Below are positions 27,212-34,271 of a stretch of 38,447 nucleotides of DNA, piece by piece. A program made the position numbers and the translations under genes. The notes under the pieces are model-generated. The model was not told where the DNA came from. It ran no database searches and saw only the letters and a program-made list of their open reading frames with translations. Source of the stretch: Verrucomicrobiales bacterium (GTDB taxonomy: Bacteria > Verrucomicrobiota > Verrucomicrobiia > Limisphaerales > CANJXF01); the NCBI GenBank assembly GCA_947478865.1, contig CANJXF010000042.1, forward strand, positions 1 to 38,447, in the 5' to 3' direction. Positions within the stretch are counted from its first letter, which is position 1; every line of letters starts with the position of its first letter.

Positions 27212-28312
27212 TTACGCCCTGCGCTCTTTGATTGCTGCCAGAATATCCGCCACGACTTCCGCCTTCGGCTTCGCGCCGACGTTGCCTTTCCCATGCAAGC
27301 GCACGCTGATGTTGCCCGCTTCCACATCGCGCCCGCCGATGACAAGCATGGTGTGGACTTTCGCTGATTCCGCGTCGGCGATTTTCGCTTTGATCGGTTC
27401 GGGGCCGAGATCGCTGGTCACGCGGACTTCGGCGGCGCGGAGTTGTTGCGCGATGTCTTTGGCGTAGGCGATGAGATTGTCGTCGGCGTTGAGCGTCAGG
27501 ACGCGGACCTGTTCGGGCGCGAGCCAGAGCGGGAAGTTGCCCGCGTAATGCTCGATGAGGAAGCCGATGAACCGCTCATGTGTGCCGAGCGGCGCGCGAT
27601 GGATGCACAACGGTGTCTTGTTCGAGTTGTCCTTGTCGCGGTAGGTCAGGCCGAACTTGGCGGGCACGGCGAAGTCCACCTGATTCGTGGCGATGGTGAA
27701 CTCGCGGCCGATGGCGCTCCACACCTGCACGTCAATCTTTGGCCCGTAGAACGCCGCCTCGTTGGCGACCTCCACGTAGTTGATGCCGGATTCGATCAAC
27801 ACCTGGCGCACCATGTCCTCGGTCTTCTTCCACAACTCCGGCTCGTTGACGTATTTCTTGCCGAGCCCTTCCGCCGCGTGCGTGCTGAAACGCATCTGAT
27901 ATTTTTCCAGGCCGAAGATTTTGAAATACTTCAGATACATGTCGTTCACGGCGCGGAACTCGTCGGCGAACTGCTCCTCGGTGCAATAGATGTGCGCGTC
28001 GTTCATGTTGAGCGAACGCACGCGCATGAGGCCGAACAACTCGCCGCTCTGCTCGTAGCGATAGCAGGTGCCGTATTCCGCGAGGCGCAACGGCAAGTCG
28101 CGGTAACTGTGCGGTTCAGCCGCAAAGATGCGGTGGTGATGCGGACAGTTCATCGCTTTGAGGTAATAACTCTCCGGCTCGCCCAGTTTTTTCAATTCCG
28201 CGCGCAACGCGGACAACTCGTTGAACGCGGCGGTCACGGGCTGCGGCGCAACGCCGGCTTTGACGGCGGCTTCAACAGCAACAAATTCTTCGTCATTCAA
28301 AATGGCAGACAT
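27212..28312 (-). CDS. thrS: Threonyl-tRNA synthetase, C-terminal half of a split gene
   Basis: From the ATG at 28312 this is 366 residues: an amphipathic linker (1-47), then the ThrRS core from YYLKAMNCPHHH (zinc Cys56). Class II motif 2 is GTCYRYEQSGELFGLMRVRS with NDAHIYC (His107). PNEAAFYGPKID-like sequence (here ANEAAFYGPKID) comes next, and motif 3 with the zinc His is IHRAPLGTHERFIGF. The anticodon-binding domain starts at WLAPEQVRVLTL. It lacks the editing domain and motif 1, which are encoded at 33285-34271. The TTG at 28354 would overlap the preceding stop and adds 14 unlike residues. Alone it cannot be a complete synthetase; with the other half it could be. There is no clear ribosome site. 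Confidence 0.9.
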   Translation of the reverse strand: MSAILNDEEFVAVEAAVKAGVAPQPVTAAFNELSALRAELKKLGEPESYYLKAMNCPHHHRIFAAEPHSYRDLPLRLAEYGTCYRYEQSGELFGLMRVRSLNMNDAHIYCTEEQFADEFRAVNDMYLKYFKIFGLEKYQMRFSTHAAEGLGKKYVNEPELWKKTEDMVRQVLIESGINYVEVANEAAFYGPKIDVQVWSAIGREFTIATNQVDFAVPAKFGLTYRDKDNSNKTPLCIHRAPLGTHERFIGFLIEHYAGNFPLWLAPEQVRVLTLNADDNLIAYAKDIAQQLRAAEVRVTSDLGPEPIKAKIADAESAKVHTMLVIGGRDVEAGNISVRLHGKGNVGAKPKAEVVADILAAIKERRA

Positions 28313-28318
28313 GCCGGA
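28312..28318. repeat. 7-base direct repeat (copy 1) at the thrS break
   Basis: TGCCGGA here and at 33293-33299 flank the block that separates the thrS halves. Both copies have the same codon phase (TCC GGC A on the - strand). Joining the two at this sequence restores one continuous reading frame. Confidence 0.6.
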
Positions 28319-28350
28319 GAAAATAGCCGTCCGCGAACCGCAATGAAATC

Positions 28351-29190
28351 TCAATTTTTAACGCGGTAAAAGCGGTTGGCATTTGTGGCATTGGAGTCCG
28401 TGAATGATTGGAGGTAATTGTTTCCGGTGAATGGACCGGCAAATGTAGTCCAGTTGGTCGTAGCGAGGTTGGTGGAGACTTCCGCGTAGTAGGTTGCGCC
28501 GAGTTTTGTGCCGAAAGTCGCGGTGAATGAGTTCATCGTTTTAGTCGGCGATGAAATCGTCAGACCGGCTTGAAAATACAAATAGAAGATTTCTGACGGT
28601 GTGTGGATTGGGCCGCCGTCCGTGCCGTTGGCGGAGGTGTCGAGGATTTTGACGCCGAGCGTGTAGAGGCCGGGCACACTTGCCGCGAACGTGCGTCCGT
28701 GGATGTGGCCGTAGGGATCAGAGCCTGGCGAGCCGTCGCTCTCGCTCAAGTTGAAATGGTTCGCGCCATTCGTCGTGCCGACGGGAATTGTGAAGAGCGG
28801 ATTACTGACGGCGGGATTTCCCGCGTCCTGTTCCCAAACCGAGAACGCGCCATTCTGCGGGCCGGTGACGGAGACGAATTGCAGTTGCAGATACGCACCG
28901 TCCGCCGCGTGGCCGAAAGCCGGGCCGCCGTTGTCGGGTGTGGAAGCAAGCGCGGTGAATGTGAGTCCCGCACCTTGATACAAGTTCGAGAACGAACCGG
29001 CATTTGTGTAGCTCAGATATACATCATAGCCCGCGTTCGTCCCATAGACGTAACCGTTGACGAAATAAAGCTGGGCGTTCTGCGTGGTGTTGACTGCGCC
29101 CGCGTTGATATGGATGTGCTGGGCGCAAAGCAGACGCGGCCAGATCAAAATGGTTATTAGTGCAAAGATGAGTTTGATTTTTTCTTTCAT
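28351..29190 (-). CDS. Secreted HIHGR-motif protein, paralogue 1
   Basis: The 279-residue protein has a signal peptide (LIFALITILIWPRLLCA) and a mature start with HIHINAGA. The body has FTALASTPDNGGPAFG, IPVGTTNGANHFNLSE, DPYGHIHGRTFAASVPG, GGPIHTPSEIFYLYFQAGL. The HIHGR region followed by a ..S.PG.Y..G motif resembles the actinobacterial surface-anchored repeat (choice-of-anchor M type) often linked to metal uptake; that comparison is from memory. The C-terminal 70 residues (YYAEVSTNLATTNWTTF, ending RFYRVKN) form the shared tail domain. It lies three bases after the 29194-30048 paralogue. The His-rich features suggest metal binding, which is inference. Confidence 0.8.
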   Translation of the reverse strand: MKEKIKLIFALITILIWPRLLCAQHIHINAGAVNTTQNAQLYFVNGYVYGTNAGYDVYLSYTNAGSFSNLYQGAGLTFTALASTPDNGGPAFGHAADGAYLQLQFVSVTGPQNGAFSVWEQDAGNPAVSNPLFTIPVGTTNGANHFNLSESDGSPGSDPYGHIHGRTFAASVPGLYTLGVKILDTSANGTDGGPIHTPSEIFYLYFQAGLTISSPTKTMNSFTATFGTKLGATYYAEVSTNLATTNWTTFAGPFTGNNYLQSFTDSNATNANRFYRVKN

Positions 29191-29193
29191 TGG

Positions 29194-30048
29194 TCAGGGC
29201 AGATTGTTGAGTTGGCGAATCCGGTAAAAACGATTTCCGGTTGGCGCGTTTGTGTCGGTGAATGATTGAAGCGCGTTGTTGCCCCGCAAAGGTGCAGCGG
29301 CGGATTGCCAGTTGTTTGATGCGAGTGAACTGGTCGCTTCCAGCAAATTGCTGATGCCGGGCGGACTGCGAAAGGAGACGTTCACGCGGTTGGTGAAAGT
29401 TTGAATCGTTTCAATTCGTAACCCTGCTTGAAATCTCACCAGCAAAATGTCGGAAGGTGATTGAATCGGCCCGCCACCGACGCCGTTGGTGGAAAGGTCA
29501 ATCACACGGAAGCCCACGATGCAAGTTCCCGGCGCGCTCGTCGTGAACTCACGTCCGTGAATATGTCCGTATGGATCTGCGCCCGGCTCACCATTGTTTT
29601 CGCTGATGACCAAATAATTTGAACCGTTCGTTGTGCCGACTGGCACGCTGAAGGTGATGTTTCCCAAATCGCTCTCACCATCGCCTTCCCAAAAAGCGAA
29701 GCTGCCGCCGGGCGGTCCAGCCACGCTCACCACCTGCACCGCGAGTTGTGCGCCAAACGCGGCGCAACCGGAAATCGGCCCGCCATTGGGCGGCGTCGCA
29801 GCAAGCGCAGAAAACGTGAGCGCGTCGCCCCGATAGTAACCGGTGTTCAGTCCATTCGTGCGCAGGATTTGAGGCAAAGCGAAACTGCTTAAACTGGCAT
29901 CGAACAGATTGCCGTTACTAAAAACGAGTTTGTCGTTTTGGTTTGTGCCGAGTGCACCGGCGTAGATGTGAGTGTCTGCCCGGCCTGGGAGTGTGAAAAC
30001 TCCCAAGCCGAGCATTACCAAAACAAACTTGGTTGTGAATCTCCGCAT
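29194..30048 (-). CDS. Secreted HIHGR-motif protein, paralogue 2
   Basis: The 284-residue protein has a signal peptide (FVLVMLGLGVFTLPGRA) and mature start THIYAGALG. It matches paralogue 1 along its length: FSALAATPPNGGPISG, VPVGTTNGSNYLVISE, DPYGHIHGREFTTSAPG, GGPIQSPSDILLVRFQAGL, and a tail ending RFYRIRQLNNLP. The two are a tandem duplication, with only GA/GT spacing changes. The stop is followed after three bases by the start of paralogue 1, so they form one transcription unit with the gene upstream (30055-31002). Confidence 0.8.
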   Translation of the reverse strand: MRRFTTKFVLVMLGLGVFTLPGRADTHIYAGALGTNQNDKLVFSNGNLFDASLSSFALPQILRTNGLNTGYYRGDALTFSALAATPPNGGPISGCAAFGAQLAVQVVSVAGPPGGSFAFWEGDGESDLGNITFSVPVGTTNGSNYLVISENNGEPGADPYGHIHGREFTTSAPGTCIVGFRVIDLSTNGVGGGPIQSPSDILLVRFQAGLRIETIQTFTNRVNVSFRSPPGISNLLEATSSLASNNWQSAAAPLRGNNALQSFTDTNAPTGNRFYRIRQLNNLP

Positions 30049-30054
30049 GACGCT

Positions 30055-31002
30055 TCAAGGAACGTAGTTGTAACGGAAGAATTGCTGATTTGCTCCGCTG
30101 TCAAGCACGACGCCGGGTTTTCCATCCACGGTCACAGGTGCGTTGGTCACGTTCGCCCAAGTCGCGGGTGAGAGCGATGGCGTGGCTTGCAACGTCCAGT
30201 TAGTCGCCGTGCCGGAAGGCCAAGCAACGAAAACTTTTTGCGCGATGCTCAACGTGGGAGTCGGCGTGATCGCCATGGTCGCGGAAATGCCGCGAGCCGA
30301 CGCGGCTGTGCCGGCGGTTTTGTTTGCGATGTCGTTTCCACCAATCATGATGGTGTAATCGCCGGCAGCCAAAGCGAAGCTGCCAGTCACGCTGCCGCCA
30401 CTGGTGGTGGACGATGCCGAACCTTTGTAAGTGAACGTGGTCAACTGCGAAAAGTCGCCGGGCAAATCGCCGTCGCCGCCAATCTTCCACTCGCCAAGCG
30501 CGTTCCAACTGCCGTCGGTCGGCGCTTCGGTCGTGGCGTTGGTGTCAATGTTTTGCTGCACCCACCAAGTGCGCCACGCGACGGAAGAAGGACTGAAATC
30601 ATGATCCGGGCTCACCGGCAGATTAGTCCAGCCCACGGCAAACGGCGCGATGGCCGCGAGTCCAGAATAGATGGAAAACGCAGGCGTGAGGTCACCCAGC
30701 GAAGTTCCGGTGGCGAGAGGATTTGCGGCAACGGACAGTGTGACCAATGAGGAATTATCCAGATGAAACCGGAAGGCGCGGCCTTTGTGGCTGTCGCCAA
30801 GAACGCCGTCTGCGGCATCAGCCCAACCGAAGTTGCCGGTGCAGGTTTGATTGGTGATCGCCTTGACACCGTTCGTCAGGCCGGAAAAAGCCCCGAAGTC
30901 GCGTCCCGAATATGTCAGGTGAGCTTGGGCATATTGGCTTGTAGCGAGAACGCCCACCGCGAGGATTGTGCCGAATACATTTTTAAGTTTCATAACTTTC
31001 AT
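30055..31002 (-). CDS. Secreted protein with shared tail domain, function unknown
   Basis: The 315-residue protein has a signal peptide (GTILAVGVLATSQYAQA) directly followed by HLTYSGRDFGAF. The middle reads like a lectin or calcium-dependent beta-sandwich (AFRFHLDNSSLVTLSV, TPAFSIYSGLAAI, FALAAGDYTIMIGGNDIA), a layout common in exported pre-peptidase C-terminal-like (PPC-type) domains. The end (WTLQATPSLSPATWANVTNAP and NQQFFRYNYVP) is the tail domain of the neighbouring secreted proteins. It ends six bases before the next gene. No enzyme signature was seen. Confidence 0.75.
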   Translation of the reverse strand: MKVMKLKNVFGTILAVGVLATSQYAQAHLTYSGRDFGAFSGLTNGVKAITNQTCTGNFGWADAADGVLGDSHKGRAFRFHLDNSSLVTLSVAANPLATGTSLGDLTPAFSIYSGLAAIAPFAVGWTNLPVSPDHDFSPSSVAWRTWWVQQNIDTNATTEAPTDGSWNALGEWKIGGDGDLPGDFSQLTTFTYKGSASSTTSGGSVTGSFALAAGDYTIMIGGNDIANKTAGTAASARGISATMAITPTPTLSIAQKVFVAWPSGTATNWTLQATPSLSPATWANVTNAPVTVDGKPGVVLDSGANQQFFRYNYVP

Positions 31003-31029
31003 ACTGTGAATTTTTTCTTGGTTAATTTT

Positions 31030-31665
31030 TTACGGATTGCCATCGGGCCGCACGAGGCGGTCACCGGTGGACTGGATTTGTTGAATGACTTTTGACCACG
31101 CGAGCCGTTCGACGTGTCCGTCGGCAAATAGATAATTCGCCGAACTTGCATGGCGCTTCACCGCGACCTGTTGCGGAAACACGGCGACGGAATAACCGCC
31201 ACTGGACGCGTCCGCAAAATGGAAGTGGTCCGAGCCATCATATTGGTCGTCACACTCCGCCATCCAGAAGGTCGCCGATGGAGACGGCATGGTTGTCAGT
31301 TTGGAAAAGTCCAACTGCGGCGCGCCGAACGGATGCGGGGTCAGGAAGTCGTTGACTGCATAACTGTAAAGACGCTGTTCATTCTTGTCGTCCGGGCAGC
31401 GAAACACGTTTGTGCCCGTGTCCCGTTGCAGCGTGCCCACCCACGACGCGTGCTCATGCGAAGTCATGGGCAGCTTGTCGTTGTTATCGCCGCAATACAT
31501 CACCGCGCCCAATCCAATCTGCTTGAGATTGGACAGGCATCGCGTTGCCCGCGCCTTGGCCTTGGCTTGGCTCAACGCAGGCAGGAGCAACGCCGCGAGG
31601 ATTGCGATTATCGCAATCACCACGAGCAACTCAATCAATGTAAAGGCAGCGTTACGGGAACGCAT
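31030..31665 (-). CDS. Prepilin-type N-terminal cleavage/methylation protein (H-X9-DG type), copy D
   Basis: From the ATG at 31665 the protein has 211 residues: leader RSRNAA, then [20 protein letters not shown]. The body is shorter than in copies A-C ([44 protein letters not shown]). The C-terminal tail [13 protein letters not shown] fits H-X9-DG. It is the only prepilin-type gene inside the block between the thrS halves, on the same strand as its neighbours and 27 bases upstream of the secreted-protein operon, with which it is probably co-transcribed. Confidence 0.9.
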
Positions 31666-31778
31666 GACGGACGGCTGAATCAACAGCGTTTGGAATCAAA
31701 CGGAAATGTTCACACCCAGCACACGGCTTGGGTGAACAGAAACAACTCCGCCGGAGCGGAGAACAATCGAAGAAGTAA

Positions 31779-32159
31779 TCAGGCCGTTCGGGGCGGCGGC
31801 ACGGGCGGGGTGGTGGAGAAGGAAGCGGGTAATTCAACGCGCCATCCAACCAGCGTGAATGCGGACGGCGTGGCAAAAACAAAAGGTGAAGTTTGGCTCA
31901 CGAACTCAAACTTCTTGAGCGTGGGCATCGAGGCTTCTTTTTTTTCCTCGGATTTTTTCCCGGCCTTGATTGCTTTGCAAAGCGGACAAGGATGCTCGCC
32001 GTCGAAAGTCTTACTCACAGCCTCGGTCAAAGAATCATTTGCGGAAAGGTTTGCCGCGATCATCGTCGTCCACGCCACGGATTGCAGCAACGCCCAATGC
32101 CCGCCGAGCGAGAGCGTCAGCGTCAACACGACCAGCCACTTGGACAGGCGGAGCAACAT
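31779..32159 (-). CDS. Small membrane protein with CPLC motif (possibly DUF2946-like)
   Basis: From the ATG at 32159 the protein has 126 residues. One hydrophobic helix (KWLVVLTLTLSLGGHWALLQ) is followed by an exported part with GEHPCPLCKAIKAGKKSEEKK. The C-terminal 50 residues are Pro- and Thr-rich. The CPxC with an adjacent His could bind a metal; the layout recalls DUF2946 proteins, some of which accompany copper genes, but the resemblance is weak. The longer TTG start at 32201 is less likely. It is 114 bases upstream of the prepilin-type gene. Confidence 0.6.
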   Translation of the reverse strand: MLLRLSKWLVVLTLTLSLGGHWALLQSVAWTTMIAANLSANDSLTEAVSKTFDGEHPCPLCKAIKAGKKSEEKKEASMPTLKKFEFVSQTSPFVFATPSAFTLVGWRVELPASFSTTPPVPPPRTA

Positions 32160-32249
32160 CGCGCCCAAGCTAGAGGAACGCAGTGCCACATCAAAGGACA
32201 AAATACAGCCTCCATTTCTGGAAGCTGTCGCGTTTTCTGAATTTAATTT

Positions 32250-32951
32250 TTATGGACTTGGCGGCGTTGGCGGTTTGGGCTTCACGTTCGCTTTCGCTTT
32301 GCCACCGCCCGAATCCACAATGATGCGGGCGTTGTTGTAGTCTTCCACAAACTTCGCATTTGCGGCGGCGAACTGCGGCACAAGCGCGTCCATCTGATCG
32401 TTCAACGCGGCATCGGCGGCATCAAACTCATCAGACATTTGCTTGGTGGCGGTCGAACCAGAGGCCACGGCGTCACGCGGTTTGGACAGGCTCGCGGAGT
32501 AGGCATCAATTTTCGCCTTGAGCGCGGTGAGCTTGGCAGCGGTCACGCCATAGGGCGCAAGGTTGGCTAGGTTCGCCGTCGCGGCGGCGTGGATGTTCAA
32601 CGCGTTGGTCGCGGCGAGGGTGTCGCGGCCTTCCATGTAGGTGCTGACGCTCACGTTCGTCTTGGCGGCGAGGTCGTTGTTCTTGACCTTCTTGGCGTAG
32701 GCGTTGGTGGCGAGGGCAACTTCCACGGTGGCGGTAGCCATCGTTTTGCGGAGGGCTTCTTTGTCGGCAGAAAGACCGGTGGAATCCACGGCTTGGCTCT
32801 GCGCGAGGTTTTGGATGTTAATGACGCGCGCGCCGAAATCGGCGTAGCCGTCAACGAATGCCTGCAATGTTTGCCAGGTGCTGTTATTGCGGTCGCAAAC
32901 TGCCTTTACCGCAAGATACATGGATAACTTGTTTTCTTGCTTGGAGGTCAT
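32250..32951 (-). CDS. Helical protein of unknown function beside the 21-base array
   Basis: From the ATG at 32951 the protein has 233 residues; a TTG at 32987 is possible. It opens TSKQENKLSMYLAVKAVCD and is Ala-rich and helical throughout (DKEALRKTMATATVEVALA, YGVTAAKLTALKAKIDAYSA, FDAADAALNDQMDALV), ending NARIIVDSGGGKAK plus a Pro-Lys tail. No signal peptide, membrane segment or catalytic motif is seen. The pattern is that of a four-helix or coiled-coil bundle. I recognise the type (short, helical, KQENKLSMY opening and a closing IIxxGGGK) only as recurring hypothetical proteins of several phyla; no function is known to me. Its start abuts the tandem array, so the two may belong together. 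Confidence 0.65.
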   Translation of the reverse strand: MTSKQENKLSMYLAVKAVCDRNNSTWQTLQAFVDGYADFGARVINIQNLAQSQAVDSTGLSADKEALRKTMATATVEVALATNAYAKKVKNNDLAAKTNVSVSTYMEGRDTLAATNALNIHAAATANLANLAPYGVTAAKLTALKAKIDAYSASLSKPRDAVASGSTATKQMSDEFDAADAALNDQMDALVPQFAAANAKFVEDYNNARIIVDSGGGKAKANVKPKPPTPPSP

Positions 32952-32989
32952 ACGAGGAAAAGGTAAAAAATCCGTATCGTTCGTCAACC

Positions 32990-33283
32990 CGAAAATGGCG
33001 GGAAGTCGGGAGCAAATCCGGTGACGACGGGAGGCAGATTGGCTACGCCAATCGCCAGCTTCGGGAAGTCCAAAACCACTGGCAAAAATTAGCCAGTCAG
33101 AGCGGAGAAGTCGCCTGACAGATGCAGGAAGTCAGCCGCCAGCATCGAGAAGTTGACCGCCAGATGCGTGACGACGGCTGACAGATACGCCAATTTAACT
33201 GACAGAACCGCCAAGTCTGATTCCAGACCGGCCAATTAACCCGTCAGCATCGCCAAGCCAAGTGGCAGACGCGCCAAGTCTTA
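32990..33283. repeat. 14-copy, 21-base degenerate tandem array
   Basis: Fourteen imperfect 21-base units run head to tail with no spacers. On the + strand, most units start with a codon like CGN, AGN or TGA, then CAG, and have a core near CGCCAAGT or GGAAGT. Read in frame, units give heptads such as RQLREVQ, RQHREVD and RQHRQAK, interrupted by stops (TGA in units 7, 10 and 11). The - strand frame gives hydrophobic heptads (LAVLSVK, LAYLSAV) with a few stops. It is not a CRISPR array (no spacers). It lies exactly between the 32250-32951 gene and the stop of the ThrRS N-half. Confidence 0.85.
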
Positions 33284-33284
33284 T

Positions 33285-34271
33285 TCACGGATTGCCGGAC
33301 GCGGGTGAGCCATCCTTTTTCGCGTGGTCGGAAAGTTGTTTCTCCAGTTCGGCGATGCGTTGCTCGATGTCCTTGCGGTCGGCGCGGTGTTCGTCCATTT
33401 CCATTTTCGGAAACATGGACTCCGCGTAATACGGCAGATGGCCAGAGGTTTTATACATTTTCTCCTTGGCCAAATGCGGCGTGCGGACGCGGACGTAGCC
33501 GGCGGCAAATTCGGTTTCCTTGGCCAGCTTCTCCAGTTCCTCGACTAGCACCGTGCCCTTGGGCAGCCACAGCGGCATGCCCGGCCCGACAAATTCCGTG
33601 TCAATCGCGAACAGCCCCATCTCCGCGCCGATCTTGCGATGGTCGCGACGCTTGGCCTCCTCGAGCATCTTGAAATACTCGTCGAGTGCGGTCTTGTTCT
33701 TGAACGCCGTGCCGTAGATGCGCTGGAGCTGCGGGCCTTTTTCGTCGCCCTTGTAATACGCGGCGGCCACGCTGGTGAGCTTGAACGCCCCGATGTTGCC
33801 CGTGCGCATCACATGCGGCCCGGCGCAGAGATCGATGAAATCGCCATTCTTGAAATAGGAAATCGGCTCGTTCTCCGGAATGTTCTGCACGATGTCCAAC
33901 TTGAACTTCGACGGGACCTGGCGGTCGGCCACAGCGGCAAGCCGACCGTTCTGTGCGTCTTTCAAAGCCTGTTCGCGCGTGACGACCACTTTTTCAAACG
34001 GCTGATTGGCTTTGGTGATCGCCTTCATCTCCGCCTCGATCTTCGGGAAATCTTCCGGCGAAATGCGATGCGACAATTCTACGTCGTAATAAAAACCATT
34101 TTCGACCGGCGGCCCGGCGGCGAATTGCGCTTCCGGCCAGATTTTCAAAATCGCCGTCGCGAGCACGTGCGCGCACGAGTGGCGCAAGCGTTCGAGGTCG
34201 GTCATTTTCGCGCGGTCATCGAGACTTTTGCGTTCCGGATTCGGTTGCGGCGGCTGATTTTCTTCGTCCAT
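33285..34271 (-). CDS. thrS: Threonyl-tRNA synthetase, N-terminal half of a split gene
   Basis: The 328-residue protein lacks the N-terminal TGS domain and starts with the editing domain: RHSCAHVLATAI (His31, His35) and DLCAGPHV (Cys149, His153), the residues that hydrolyse Ser-tRNA(Thr). Class II motif 1 (GPGMPLWLPKGTVLVEELEK, about 229-248) and RTPHLAKEKMYKTSGHLPYY follow. After YYAESMFPKMEMDE it continues into a charged helix (RKDIEQRIAELEKQLSDHAKK) and ends with SPASGNP. Motifs 2 and 3 and the anticodon-binding domain are encoded 5 kb away at 27212-28312. The break falls in the linker between motifs 1 and 2, so both halves keep folded domains. There is a long helix at this end and another at the start of the C-half that could pair. 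Confidence 0.9.
   Translation of the reverse strand: MDEENQPPQPNPERKSLDDRAKMTDLERLRHSCAHVLATAILKIWPEAQFAAGPPVENGFYYDVELSHRISPEDFPKIEAEMKAITKANQPFEKVVVTREQALKDAQNGRLAAVADRQVPSKFKLDIVQNIPENEPISYFKNGDFIDLCAGPHVMRTGNIGAFKLTSVAAAYYKGDEKGPQLQRIYGTAFKNKTALDEYFKMLEEAKRRDHRKIGAEMGLFAIDTEFVGPGMPLWLPKGTVLVEELEKLAKETEFAAGYVRVRTPHLAKEKMYKTSGHLPYYAESMFPKMEMDEHRADRKDIEQRIAELEKQLSDHAKKDGSPASGNP
33293..33299. repeat. 7-base direct repeat (copy 2) at the thrS break
   Basis: TGCCGGA, the partner of 28312-28318. It lies within the codons Ser-Gly of the N-half end, four codons before its stop. Confidence 0.6.

Follow-up and report, generated by a model that had tools for sequence, protein, structure and literature searches.

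Degenerate 21-bp repeat arrays recur upstream of a helical-protein gene family in Verrucomicrobiota and Bacteroidota

Introduction

A tandem array of degenerate 21-bp units fills the gap between one half of a split thrS gene and a gene for a helical protein in the Verrucomicrobiales contig analyzed here (hereafter the window, 38,447 nucleotides). To which of its two neighbors does such an array belong, and does it act as coding sequence, as RNA or as DNA? A reading made from the sequence alone had offered either a decayed repeat protein or a structural or binding array of RNA or DNA, possibly belonging to an insertion in thrS, and had proposed a link to the helical-protein gene. In this work, the array was analyzed in the window and across homologous loci in two phyla. 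The features of the window used below are the following:

32986..33279, minus strand: 21-bp repeat array, 14 head-to-tail units, spacer-free and indel-free
32250..32951, minus strand: HG, gene for a 233-aa helical protein, homologues found by profile search
32195..32228, minus strand: intrinsic terminator after HG, a 10-bp stem followed by ATTTTGTCCT
32982..32987, minus strand: TTGACG, a weak -35-like hexamer at the array end, 31-36 bp before the ATG, with no clear -10

The Array in the Window

Across positions 32940-33320, sequence identity at lags of 21, 42 and 63 bases was 0.45, 0.44 and 0.48, compared with about 0.25 at most other lags. A scan of lag-21 identity in 250-base segments of the whole window (maximum 0.532, mean 0.280, sd 0.039) placed all starts above 4.5 sd at 32940-33138, i.e., over the array. 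The lag identities and the 14 units without indels bear out the 14-copy, spacer-free, degenerate 21-base array of the sequence-only reading; its coordinates, 32990-33283, describe the same array in a register shifted by 4 bp. TRF did not detect the window array because its units are less than about 70% alike. The consensus, read in the direction of the HG gene, is ACTTc.CG..tCTG.C.g..G. Its placement between the helical-protein gene and thrS also holds: in the 32990-33283 register one end adjoins the stop codon (33285) of the N-terminal thrS half, and in the 32986-33279 register the other end lies 34 bp before the HG ATG (32951). Stops had been reported on both strands, and indeed each of the six frames contains 2-4 of them. 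The array sequence occurs once genome-wide, its two-unit consensus pattern shows no excess outside the array (12 matches versus 10 for a reversed control), and no 21-bp arrays were found elsewhere in the 399 kb of this genome that were sampled.

The thrS gene is split into an N-terminal half (33285-34271) and a C-terminal half (27212 to about 28312), which are separately started and lie about 5 kb apart; the split point corresponds to a variable linker in intact relatives. No other ThrS C-terminal half was found in the genome, and the two-piece ThrS is therefore likely functional. Between the halves, positions 28000-32250 carry pseudopilin-like and secreted-protein-like genes. A second genome, G250, has thrS split with the array and HG, followed by different cargo; its content after HG (L055:1-9400) is completely different from that of window positions 28000-32250, as if the split were an insertion hot spot. 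In the relative G028, thrS is split in the same way, but a 220-aa gene is the only one called between the halves, and array and HG are both missing. G003 has a separate thrS C-terminal half, the N-terminal half being absent from that contig. Since G028 is split without the array and HG, and G250 carries other cargo, the array and HG are passengers of the thrS split and not its cause. The proposed membership of the array in a thrS insertion is therefore correct as to the split, which is real, and incorrect as to the array, which belongs to HG and occurs with it at unrelated sites elsewhere.

Recurrence of the Array Upstream of HG

In a profile search of the order, 38 of 293 genomes contained HG homologues, often in multiple copies and often truncated. 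Outside the order, HG was rare, being found in four of the 288 other genomes of a phylum-wide sample, and further homologues were identified in Bacteroidota. An array with a 21-bp period was located just upstream of HG in 43 of the 60 full-length loci, Bacteroidota included, compared with 8 of 430 control intervals drawn from the same loci as the HG copies (odds ratio 133, p 1.5e-39). Among periods of 16-30 bp, none except 21 was enriched upstream of HG. The proposed link between the array and the gene at 32250-32951 is thus supported in two phyla.

Array and HG occur together in the Bacteroidota Flaviaesturariibacter aridisoli and Prolixibacteraceae, and arrays are present in G567, a member of the class outside the order. 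In the genome of the window itself, a diverged HG paralogue (C27) is likewise preceded by a 21-bp array, which differs from that of the window and lies about 230 bp from the gene. The F. aridisoli genome (G293) contains 15 HG copies, 14 of them distinct, as two copies share the same sequence along 1,562 bp, as far as the contig ends, and possibly represent one locus assembled twice. A 21-bp array accompanies eleven of the distinct copies, no two with the same consensus, and G276 has six full-length HG copies with an array. A search for the repeat unit elsewhere, as had been suggested, therefore has a twofold outcome: the exact sequence is specific to each copy, whereas 21-bp arrays stand beside HG homologues in two phyla. 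The result that would have marked a private minisatellite, a unit absent elsewhere next to a gene that lacks an array, did not occur.

Coding Sequence, RNA or DNA

A coding function for the arrays was considered and rejected. The conservation signal lacks a 3-bp period, every frame of the window array is interrupted by stops, and no frame is open in all arrays. Several arrays alternate between 20 and 21 or between 21 and 22 bp; the 20/21-bp alternation and the missing 3-bp signal exclude codons as a general explanation, and the decayed repeat protein of the sequence-only reading is not sustained. A neutral private minisatellite or a decayed repeat-protein gene would account for the degenerate units and the closed frames of the window, but it is contradicted by the association test, with the same period before homologous genes in two phyla, by spacings in some arrays that are not multiples of three, and by the constraint on conserved columns described below. 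We regard this explanation as very improbable.

Another alternative is a function at the RNA level: the array would be transcribed, either in the 5′ leader of HG or alone, and HG would bind the single-stranded units of a guide array, sponge or packaging scaffold. In its favor, the orientation of the array is fixed relative to HG, and some arrays alternate two unit types with a period of 42 or 41 bp. The window array alone folds better than its shuffles (z -4.0, sense), though across 28 arrays tested on both strands there was no consistent excess of structure (mean z 0.08 sense, -0.72 antisense), so that the RNA structure proposed earlier is not supported family-wide. Clean blocks of conserved repeats and variable spacers were not found, the best 12 columns holding 72% of the information against 70% in the null. 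The arrays of L064 and L250 consist of near-identical units, and those of L076 and L184 reuse the same variable parts, which also speaks against an RNA function. Terminators beyond the array were found in 1 of 45 loci at either end.

The position of promoter-like sequences also argues against RNA. Between the array and the ATG, TTGAC is present in 17 of 30 Verrucomicrobiota loci (3.9 expected) and TACCTT in 6 of 16 Bacteroidota loci (0.85 expected), so that roughly half of the loci carry a promoter-like consensus match there. In the window, the TTGACG hexamer is the only such sequence, and a strict sigma-70 scan gave no promoter. With such motifs between array and HG, the array at these loci would be regulatory-region DNA and not mRNA. 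Overall, we hold an RNA function to be possible but unlikely.

At the DNA level, 534 of 558 unit spacings are exactly 21 bp, with a median of 13 units per array. A distance of 21 bp corresponds to two turns of B-DNA, and this period is kept across deeply diverged loci. In the conservation profile, signal is present at one and at two cycles per unit, the latter equal to 10.5 bp, but not at 3 bp; the two-cycle signal can come partly from clustering of conserved columns. The other option of the earlier reading, a structural or binding array, is supported by the 21-bp arrays at 43 of 60 full-length HG loci.

Cognate Pairing of Arrays and HG Proteins

The array consensus is copy-specific even inside one genome (G276, G293). 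Similarity between arrays tracks HG protein identity (Mantel r 0.77, p 1e-4, 24 arrays) on the same strand only, a co-divergence that could partly reflect joint descent of linked sequences. In some pairs, the consensus is still recognizable at 44-32% HG protein identity. Comparison of L078 with L079 revealed column constraint: where a third array is conserved, 30 of 104 sites differ between the two, against 62 of 104 sites in variable columns (p 6e-6). The window and L055 follow the same trend in a sample too small to test; their arrays show 8.5% divergence, and their HG genes 13% at fourfold sites. As consensuses differ within one genome, one host factor that recognizes one sequence could not act on all copies. 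The obvious copy-specific reader would be HG itself.

The strict two-turn phasing upstream of promoter-like motifs could also mean that intrinsically curved or flexible DNA does no more than strengthen the HG promoter and needs no dedicated protein. However, the conserved columns are not A/T-rich (A/T content 0.41 versus 0.45 in the least conserved), and curvature alone would need no consensus kept to 44-32% protein identity. This makes an effect of curvature alone improbable.

Module Boundaries and Spread

DNA homology between genomes extends from the array (its start or within it) to just past HG, while the flanks differ. Because this homology spans the array to just after HG in unrelated surroundings, the two form a unit; the module comprises the array, the HG gene and a terminator, about 1.1-1.2 kb in all. 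Homology between the window and L055 stops just beyond the HG terminator. Their arrays are homologous unit by unit (91.5% identical), and their HG proteins are 96% identical; the hosts belong to different families. Around HG, each neighbor family is seen in at most 4 of 61 loci. The immediate upstream neighbor is on the minus strand in 30 cases and on the plus strand in 28, so the array does not serve as a joint promoter for a constant gene pair.

In a tree of 60 HG proteins, host families are mixed and three Verrucomicrobiota copies are nested among Bacteroidota; the copies L078, L079, L081 and L091 are interleaved by family. This mixed and nested topology suggests horizontal movement. The module might accordingly be viewed as a selfish mobile element, with the array as a recombination, integration or replication end and HG as the mobilizing protein. 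Its patchy, multi-copy distribution (14 distinct copies in G293, six full-length copies with an array in G276) with many truncated copies, its sharp homology limits in unrelated flanks, and near-identical copies across families (the window and L055, and the interleaved set above) would all fit. Against it, HG has no match to a recombinase or nuclease family in the family libraries, searches of plasmid and phage proteins and a scan of viral_contigs gave no match, and the array is one-sided, ending before the promoter-like region. We therefore consider such an element rather unlikely.

The HG Protein

HG is predicted to be all-helical (AF2, mean pLDDT 90.4), with a flexible, Gly/Pro-rich C-terminal tail of the PPTPP type. 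This tail type is found in most HG copies with an array and could be connected with what the array does. The pI values of HG proteins range from 5 to 9.5, most being near neutral or acidic. The family has no convincing match in Pfam, NCBIfam, PHROGs or PADLOC. The matches obtained were weak or scattered, among them those of HG members to Prominin (E 0.02-0.06), of five members to NCBIfam PQLLE (1.8e-4) and of four members to PADLOC DinG (2.5e-5), and they are regarded as probably compositional. A search of solved structures with the HG sequence returned nothing below E 0.15, and Foldseek gave best E values of 0.48 in PDB and 0.2 in BFVD. The sensor helical bundles of McpS and TorS were rejected, since their best VIA-align Z of 8.7 is in the usual range for helical bundles. 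Family libraries and structure searches revealed no recognizable DNA-binding domain.

Comparison with Known Systems

Plasmid iterons bound by Rep are direct repeats of ~17-22 bp, helically phased and located upstream of the gene for the binding protein. The module resembles them in its helically phased direct repeats upstream of a gene (21 bp, 43 of 60 loci). It differs in that HG has no Rep family match, no plasmid context and no match among plasmid or phage records, and in its about 13 far more degenerate units and many mutually different copies per genome.

In type II plasmid partition, ParR binds the about 10-bp repeats of parC as a ribbon-helix-helix protein, together with an actin-like motor gene (PMC5016525). 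Here too, tandem repeats lie upstream of a gene or operon, beside its promoter, and we count it as a likeness that ParR is a small protein whose C-terminal tail is functional and that it both occupies its repeats in helical register and acts as a repressor (PMC5016525). In contrast, the module has 21-bp units and no plasmid match. As to a ribbon-helix-helix fold, HG shows no family match, an all-helical model and structure searches without a clear match. The motor ATPase/GTPase partner is absent, as neighbor families recur in at most 4 of 61 loci and HG has its own terminator in the window.

TIGR arrays consist of 8-12-nt repeats and 9-nt spacers, the repeats being conserved within and different between loci (PMC12045711). 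They place an array beside a single helical-protein gene with locus-specific repeats, as here, which lends the RNA alternative some support; TIGR-Tas arrays have 5-15 units, a 12-nt repeat with a 9-nt spacer would also give 21, and in TIGR-Tas the array is processed to a 36-nt guide RNA. However, none of 34 HG members matched Pfam Nop, the TIGR-Tas domain, at E 0.1, and a PF01798 search of four genomes (G000, G276, G293, G294) found no HG locus. A terminator follows the TIGR array, compared with 1 of 45 loci here for each direction, and the module further differs by its lack of clean repeat/spacer blocks, its promoter-like motifs between array and gene, and its repeated variable parts.

No published account of such repeats in these phyla was found among open-licence papers. 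Because ParR/parC, iterons and TIGR-Tas each fail at least one testable defining feature, we rate the module as belonging to no known kind; it has no convincing match among the protein families, solved structures or described repeat classes compared.

Proposed Model

As the best explanation, to which we give about an even chance, we hypothesize that the array is the cis-acting DNA part of a two-part module, its phased sites being bound by HG to form a nucleoprotein array. In this view, the cognate HG protein would bind cooperatively to about 13 sites that are in phase and face the same side of the DNA, possibly as an oligomer whose Pro-rich tail stays free. The resulting filament or wrap, located beside the HG promoter, would be operator- or centromere-like and could serve HG autoregulation, marking or tethering of the locus, or both. 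ParR on parC and Rep on iterons would be the models for such action, and the divergence of arrays and proteins would keep copies within one genome orthogonal. The mostly near-neutral or acidic pI of HG, its lack of a recognizable DNA-binding domain, the existence of array-less copies and the negative strict promoter scan of the window weigh against this model.

More tentatively, and with somewhat less than an even chance, these loci could represent a dispersed, undescribed class of modules in which ~13 phased 21-bp sites are read only by their own HG, with more than 12 orthogonal assemblies per genome and a role in marking, tethering, silencing or selfish maintenance. A two-phylum module with up to 14 distinct copies in one named-strain genome and without a convincing match among the classes compared represents an unrecognized type of genetic element in bacteria. 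The many co-diverged pairs would provide a natural library of orthogonal protein-DNA recognition, should each HG read its own array.

Atypical Loci

In 17 of the 60 full-length loci no clear lag-21 array was present, some arrays being displaced or having a period of ~20.5 bp. The array is displaced from HG by other sequence in L084 and L179. Repeats with a 41-bp period lie 130-360 bp upstream of HG in L181 and L183, and in L183 this period consists of alternating 20- and 21-bp units. HG is truly array-less in G037, G044 and L070, and it can therefore exist without an array; no other period upstream of array-less copies was convincing. Several array-less copies (L052, L054, L059, L060, L062, L066, L070) have tails of K-V-A or K-A-A in place of the PPTPP type.

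The near-identical units upstream of HG in L064 and L250 are probably the result of recent expansion or homogenization. An orphan 21-bp array without an adjoining HG was found in Flaviaesturariibacter (G293, L213:16897-17148), the only orphan within 386 kb of this genome. Downstream of one array-less HG copy, a nearly perfect 20-bp minisatellite (ACCCATCGCGCCCAGACCAA) is located at L067:5282-5407.
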